Shown here: in pieces, positions 1 to 1,647 of the stretch
Numbering within the stretch: position 1 is the stretch's first letter
Layout: the number at the start of each line of letters is the position of its first letter
DNA from: Acidobacteriota bacterium
GTDB taxonomy: Bacteria; Acidobacteriota; Blastocatellia; HR10
Assembly (NCBI GenBank): GCA_030550025.1
Contig: JAUQQC010000010.1
Span: 1-64,000, forward strand
Length of the DNA: 64,000 bases
Direction of reading: 5' to 3'
Made by a program: the position numbers and the translations under genes
The notes under the pieces: model-generated
What the model was told of the DNA's origin: nothing
What the model saw: the letters and a program-made list of their open reading frames with translations, nothing else
Databases searched by the model: none

Positions 1-91
1 CAATCGAAGGGGCGATTGGGCGAGGGGGGAACAGGGGTTATCACTTTTGGCCTCCTAACCCCTTGAGCCACCAAAACTAAAACCCCCAACT
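1..91 (+). promoter_or_regulatory. Putative CRISPR leader (right-hand end of it)
   Basis: These 91 bases precede the first repeat, carry no convincing gene and include runs of A and C close to the array. I place the leader here because the degenerate repeat is at the opposite end and because the repeats end in GGATTGCGAC when read rightward, like known repeats whose last eight bases become the crRNA 5' handle. The leader presumably continues left of the window, so its promoter is not identified. Confidence 0.5.
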
Positions 92-1647
92 CTCCGAAAC
101 CAGGACTCGCTTCAAAGAGGATTGCGACCCGCCAAGACCTCGGCGTACCATCTACGCGAGATCATACTCCGAAACCAGGACTCGCTTCAAAGAGGATTGC
201 GACGGTGAAATTTTTTAAACCTTCGGTCACCGTCATAGCGTCTCCGAAACCAGGACTCGCTTCAAAGAGGATTGCGACCTGTGGAAGTAAACTTCCTCTC
301 TGACGACCTCCTGGTCGCTCCGAAACCAGGACTCGCTTCAAAGAGGATTGCGACCGTCCAAGATGAACATCACAAACACGTTTCCTTCTTCCTCCGAAAC
401 CAGGACTCGCTTCAAAGAGGATTGCGACCCATGGAAAAGGGATATGGTCATCGGATTGCCGGCCCGCTCCGAAACCAGGACTCGCTTCAAAGAGGATTGC
501 GACCTTGACGACTTCTCGATCGTCAAGGATGAGCATTACAAGCCTCCGAAACCAGGACTCGCTTCAAAGAGGATTGCGACAACGACCGCCGCCTGTACAG
601 CGCGAATGAAATCATCCACTCCGAAACCAGGACTCGCTTCAAAGAGGATTGCGACCCGAGGAGGTTTGGCTCGACGCCTGCTCGCTGTCGGCGGCTCCGA
701 AACCAGGACTCGCTTCAAAGAGGATTGCGACATCAGCAATTTCGCTAAATTAATCGCCACATCCCTACCCTCCGAAACCAGGACTCGCTTCAAAGAGGAT
801 TGCGACTCCTCGAGGACCTTCTTGTCGAAGTAGACTTCGTCGAGACTCCGAAACCAGGACTCGCTTCAAAGAGGATTGCGACTTTTCATCCTCTCTGCCC
901 TCATGTTTTCTCCTCCTTCTTCTCCGAAACCAGGACTCGCTTCAAAGAGGATTGCGACGAAGCCTCCCCAGCCGCTCCCTCAACCATTCCACCTCTCCGA
1001 AACCAGGACTCGCTTCAAAGAGGATTGCGACACGGCCCCCAAGTCATCGGCGAACAGGCGTTCGCCGGCTTCGACGCTCCGAAACCAGGACTCGCTTCAA
1101 AGAGGATTGCGACCTTTATGTCCCCCATATGATGTCCCTCCATATTATTTATTATTACCTCCGAAACCAGGACTCGCTTCAAAGAGGATTGCGACTCCAC
1201 TTCTATTTGCGCCCTTGCTACTTTCATCTTTCATCTCCGAAACCAGGACTCGCTTCAAAGAGGATTGCGACTCTCCCCTCCTATTCACTAAGAGGCCGTA
1301 GATGCTATCTCTCCGAAACCAGGACTCGCTTCAAAGAGGATTGCGACAACCCAAAGGACTTTCTTCATGCTTCTCCTCCTGTGAGACTCCGAAACCAGGA
1401 CTCGCTTCAAAGAGGATTGCGACACTCCCTCCGGGTCAGTGAGCAGGTCGTCCACCGTGGCTCCGAAACCAGGACTCGCTTCAAAGAGGATTGCGACAAA
1501 TCCTCTGGGTCGAAGGTCTGCCGGCAGAGCCGGCTCCGAAACCAGGACTCGCTTCAAAGAGGATTGCGACATCCTTCAGCCAGGAGATCGTCGTTGATCT
1601 CCAGGTCCCCCTCCGAAACGAGGACTCGCTTCAAAGAGGATTGCGAC
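92..1647 (+). CRISPR. CRISPR array, 21 repeats of 37 bp and 20 spacers
   Basis: A 37-base repeat that opens CTCCGAAACC and closes GAGGATTGCGAC occurs 21 times. Repeat starts are 92, 167, 242, 318, 392, 467, 544, 619, 695, 770, 846, 922, 995, 1077, 1159, 1235, 1311, 1387, 1461, 1534 and 1611. The last copy has C to G at base 10 (AAACC to AAACG), as expected for the old, leader-distal end. Spacers are 36 to 40 bases, except two neighbours of 45 (1032-1076 and 1114-1158). The repeat has only a weak TCGC/GCGA inverted repeat, so the crRNA would be little structured. The ATTGCGAC end resembles repeats of Thermus type I/III arrays (recalled knowledge). No cas gene is visible, so the type is unassigned; cas genes probably lie left of the window or elsewhere. 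Reading frames across the array are artefacts of the repeat. Confidence 0.99.

Follow-up and report, generated by a model that had tools for sequence, protein, structure and literature searches.

Natural type III-A CRISPR arrays of a Blastocatellia bacterium and its relatives may record repeated sampling of foldable, transcribed sites in related invaders

Among described systems, the one most like that considered here is the type III-A system of Streptococcus thermophilus, which comprises Csm1-5, Csm6-like/CARF proteins and its own cas1-cas2, with no reverse transcriptase (RT). Acquisition by this RT-less system prefers stem-loops, the 10–50 bp that follow start codons, and the coding strand (Zhang et al., 2021; reviewed in PMC9048733). 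The arrays described below share its hairpin-rich spacers, its bias towards gene starts and its bias towards spacers antisense to mRNA; they differ in being natural arrays of hot-spring Blastocatellia, whereas the S. thermophilus preferences come from laboratory acquisition, and in showing repeated sampling of the same sites. A strand bias is also found in the RT-less type III system of Thermus thermophilus, where it has been attributed to selection for RNA-targeting spacers, i.e. those that pair with transcripts (PMC7515739); in that case the spacers were mapped to known phages, whereas here a hairpin bias points to a preference in acquisition as well. Antisense, transcript-related signatures are likewise features of the RT-Cas1 type III systems of Marinomonas and Fusicatenibacter (PMC9048733; PMC5513706), from which the present genome and its congeners differ in having no RT. 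More generally, about 65% of the type III spacers in databases correspond to the coding strand (PMC8482600). The system is of a known kind, and a type III preference for hairpins is known already from laboratory acquisition experiments; the more interesting result is a natural repertoire rich in hairpins, as evidence for the sampling bias of such a system.

The window (the whole stretch of 64,000 nucleotides that was analysed) is the beginning of a 112-kb contig in a genome of 3.17 Mb (29 contigs, 98.7% complete). Close to the contig edge, on the forward strand, lies a CRISPR array (positions 92–1647) made up of 21 copies of a 37-nt repeat, CTCCGAAACCAGGACTCGCTTCAAAGAGGATTGCGAC, and 20 spacers of 36–45 nt, all of them unique. 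With near-identical repeats in the range 23–50 nt, unique spacers of even length and a leader, it has the usual attributes of such arrays. The leader (1–91, forward strand), incomplete at the contig edge, is near-identical to the one that precedes a second array, on contig C14, with GGGGTTATCACTTTTGGCCTCCTAACCCCTTGAGCCACCAAAACTAAAACCCCC present at both, and the leaders found in relatives resemble it. Twenty of the 21 repeats are identical, the only mismatch being in the last (1611–1647). The leader shared with the C14 array and the confinement of repeat changes to the last copy give the direction of reading, from left to right; the newest spacers are on the left, and spacer 4 was thus acquired after spacer 6. 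Just past the last repeat is a truncated repeat remnant, ATGAGGATTGCGAC (1648–1665).

To which Cas proteins does the array belong? Contig C25 of the same genome encodes Csm1-5 (and thus Cas10/Csm1 together with Csm2–Csm5, the set that defines type III-A), with NCBIfam matches over the cut-offs; Cas1 and a Csm6-like protein of the ring nuclease family are encoded there too. Another contig has a Cmr module with Cas6, and there is a type I remnant (Cas3, Cas4, Cas1). Ten genomes of the order were searched for the repeat, allowing up to three changes, and six have it, this one and five others; the relatives that have it include the bins HRbin08 and HRbin10, which are from hot springs, and a bin labelled uncultured Blastocatellia. 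In two of the relatives (G004 and G005) cas1-cas2 leads directly into the leader and then the array, and in G005 genes for Csm6 and a TIGR02710 protein precede cas1-cas2; at the arrays of G000 the contigs break off. The Cas1 encoded beside the arrays of G004 and G005 is 90% identical to that beside the Csm genes on C25. From this cas1-cas2-leader-array linkage it seems most likely, as far as gene content and order can tell, that the arrays are those of a type III-A (Csm) module which lacks an RT and has a Cas1-Cas2 of its own, although the Cmr module with Cas6 and the type I remnant may share the array.

Two spacers in the window drew attention because of their similarity to each other. Bases 355–377 of spacer 4 (355–391, forward strand) and 521–543 of spacer 6 (504–543, forward strand) had been reported to match at 18 of 23 positions; they do so, with mismatches at columns 5, 7, 13, 17 and 22. 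These 23 nt are the first of spacer 4 and the last of spacer 6, and hence the entire overlap in that register, so no part of the match was picked out. The original prediction also gave the translations FVMFILD and LVMLILD on the reverse strand and, on the forward strand, V-Q/K-D-E-H. These are correct, the forward readings being VQDEHHK and VKDEHYK in full, as is the description of the reverse-strand changes as all silent or Phe/Leu; what does not stand is the weight placed on that description, for the same substitutions placed at random look as conservative with p=0.21 on the reverse strand and p=0.28 on the forward strand, so that by itself a conservative pattern is no evidence. The forward frame indeed has the better raw score, and the reservation that had been expressed about the coding strand proves to be justified, the changes being conservative on both strands. 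A pooled amino-acid conservation test that favoured the reverse strand (p=0.0002, with two of its pairs hand-picked) was dropped, because in an automatic version the controls were low too: calibration of this pooled codon test was poor, with chance pairs from different genomes also giving low p values.

The pair takes on more meaning when set among the spacers of the whole repeat family, for which 150 different spacers from the six genomes were pooled and compared all against all. At a score of at least 13, nine pairs were found within single genomes in the same orientation, against 0.39 expected (82 shuffles), an excess of about 20-fold; within single genomes in opposite orientations there was one pair (0.33 expected), and between genomes there was none (2.5 expected). 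The five strongest pairs were B6/B12 (31/37), G2a1/G2b2, G2a10/G2b11, G3a3/G3a14 and G3b2/G3b4. Spacers 4/6, and likewise spacers 3 (279–317) and 10 (807–845), both on the forward strand, stand at score 13, where there were four same-genome pairs against about 0.3 expected, so that any single pair at this level may still be due to chance. B6 and B12 (798–836 and 1252–1288 of L021), in the second array, match at 31 of 37 positions from the same first base, and spacer 16 of the window (1272–1310) resembles B6 (reverse strands YGLLVNRRG and YGLIERRKG); the three are possibly captures of one site. A likeness was also noted between spacer 9 (732–769) and B8 (949–985 of L021), which agree at 22 of 35 positions (reverse strands RDVAINLAKLL and RNAVVNLVKLL).

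Could a single invader have carried the same site twice, as a tandem repeat or in two paralogous genes, in place of two related invaders carrying it once each? Spacers 3 and 10 resemble each other in two registers (16/24 and 15/21), as would be expected of a repeated sequence, and in the relative G002 several spacers have readings that resemble a single repetitive motif, (A)PEDIAVPV. But spacers 4 and 6 match in one register only, and most of the other pairs show no sign of a repeat, so we consider this origin unlikely for the pair. (The tiling of one gene of about 105 nt by spacers 4, 6, 3 and 10 was also considered and rejected, the link between spacers 6 and 3, at 13/19, being at noise level.)

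Chance similarity among 20 spacers, aided by their composition and by self-complementary members of the set, has to be taken seriously in view of the several palindromic spacers, which raise the number of spurious matches (spacer 10 itself is nearly palindromic), and because under free local alignment the result is borderline: 305 of 5734 shuffled sets (5.3%) reach the same score. A truly shared site, however, must match from edge to edge, and when the complete overlap was scored accordingly the best pair was as good in only 0.25% of 4376 dinucleotide-shuffled sets (P=0.0025). When the null was natural DNA, each set consisting of 20 viral or 20 host fragments chosen so as not to overlap (truly overlapping fragments inflate matches), 0.6% of viral and 1.1% of host sets were as good, giving a range of 0.006–0.011. 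Moreover, composition and palindromes act everywhere, yet the excess of look-alikes is confined to same-orientation pairs from the same genome; the opposite-orientation and cross-genome controls share both properties, so neither can be its cause. In the 138 spacers of Escherichia coli type I-E arrays, similar pairs numbered two and three in the two orientations, about equal, as expected for DNA targeting. Chance is thus improbable, and the proposal that two independent captures of one site explain the match better is upheld both by the pair itself, whose complete overlap matches beyond chance, and by the excess in its class. Very probably, spacers 4 and 6 are records of a single place shared by related invaders.

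The invaders had been taken to be viruses. Of that reading, the homologous site is well supported; a viral source is not, as neither spacer had a protospacer among phages, plasmids, IMG/VR (searched with patterns) or relatives. BLAST of the spacers against phages gave chance hits only (E=0.7) and plasmids no match; in IMG/VR, patterns for the 4/6 site had 6 and 11 hits, with flanks that do not match, and six other pattern scans had no hits; tblastn of merged peptides from both strands found none in phages. Spacers 5 and 20 had near matches among the relatives, but these lie in ordinary chromosomal genes and stop at 21–26 of 38–40 nt, and were dismissed as due to chance.

The orientation of the spacer set as a whole can be judged from three signatures that are independent of the look-alike pairs. 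Reverse complements of the spacers are purine-rich (0.557 ± 0.008; 103 spacers are above 0.5 and 39 below), and GGAGG or AGGAG occurs in 28 reverse complements as against 8 forward strands. A Shine–Dalgarno sequence combined with ATG is present in 17 reverse complements and one forward strand (shuffle mean 6.6, maximum 14). Within the window, the reverse strand of spacer 11 (883–921; AAGAAGGAGGAGAAAACATG) and that of spacer 17 (1348–1386; ACAGGAGGAGAAGCATGAAG) both read as Shine–Dalgarno plus ATG, and that of spacer 14 (1114–1158) as Shine–Dalgarno plus a start codon. The reverse complement of positions 874–911 of L021 does likewise, and here too the gene-start bias is on one strand. Taken as a whole, the set favours crRNAs that would be antisense to mRNA; the 4/6 pair alone does not decide the matter. 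It seems probable, all told, that a type III-A system captured one homologous site on two separate occasions, as spacers 4 and 6, from two copies of an invader's gene that had diverged, and that both spacers are most likely antisense to the mRNA of that gene.

A second peculiarity of these spacers is their capacity to fold. The best stems of the 150 spacers exceed those of dinucleotide shuffles (Z about 9), and all six genomes show the excess. Of the 150, 46 have stem scores of 6 or more, against about 19 in viral or host fragments matched for GC content and length, and 10 have scores of 8 or more, against 1 to 2 in the matched natural fragments. The same genome was searched for an array of another CRISPR type that might act as an internal control; none was found, and the E. 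coli type I-E arrays took its place. Their 138 spacers showed no excess in the same stem test (Z=0.3), whereas spacers of the present family trimmed to 32 nt retained Z=6.2. In spacer 6, an inverted repeat at 504–527 has 8-bp arms CTTGACGA and TCGTCAAG (504–511 and 520–527; p=0.003 against shuffles), of which the right arm is mostly inside the stretch common with spacer 4. Others are at 1048–1067 in spacer 13 (1032–1076), with 8-bp arms CGGCGAAC and GTTCGCCG, and at 1580–1605 in spacer 20 (1571–1610), with arms CCAGGAGATC and GATCTCCAGG; spacers 1 (129–166), 3 and 10 of the window also have inverted repeats, as do spacers in the arrays of L021 and L065–L079, and spacers 2–4 of the G004 array have perfect stems of 10–12 bp.

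How might stems, orientation and recapture be connected? The simplest account combines biased sampling of foldable sites with selection for antisense spacers: Cas1-Cas2 would take prespacers preferentially from DNA that folds, such as hairpins and gene starts; foldable sites would become acquisition hot spots; type III interference would then retain a spacer only where its crRNA base-pairs with a transcript; and on the arrival of a related invader the same site would be sampled again in the same orientation. The enrichment of stems suggests the sampling bias, and may have come about through acquisition or through invaders that were themselves rich in hairpins, while the orientation of the spacers points to the selection for antisense ones. 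We therefore put forward only tentatively the full scheme, in which an RT-less, folding-steered Cas1-Cas2 recaptured hairpins, antisense to mRNA, from successive related invaders in natural type III-A arrays. If it is true, the trace in natural arrays, which is independent of the laboratory work, statistically strong and absent from the type I-E control, would show that a preference for hairpins shapes immune memory in the wild, and the repertoire could be read as a map of hot spots that fold and are transcribed. The recapture of one site in one orientation would also offer a route, from spacers alone, to the hot-spot genes of hot-spring invaders.

Copying of the spacers from RNA by an RT-Cas1 would suit the antisense bias, the motifs of gene starts and the folded sequences, and would account for both the orientation and the preference for gene starts. 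This origin is highly improbable, and was rejected, because neither Cas1 gene carries an RT domain and no match to PF00078 was found in this 98.7% complete genome, its four congeners or G008, all of which share the repeat. Repeat-spacer units are known to be duplicated within arrays (PMC9048733), but that one spacer was duplicated within the array and then mutated is scarcely credible for spacers 4 and 6, since no duplication could produce the 17-nt offset of their shared stretch, and since it is implausible that 23 nt of spacer gathered five mutations where 20 of 21 repeats have stayed identical.

Finally, we draw attention to the surroundings of the second array, array B. Upstream of it (1–380 of L021) a leader-like motif, GGGGTTATCAC, occurs twice, as if the leader had been duplicated, and directly after it is a TIGR02710 CARF gene (1771–3084 of L021) in two open frames, covering profile positions 3–105 and 113–377; the gene is probably either broken or split by an assembly error.
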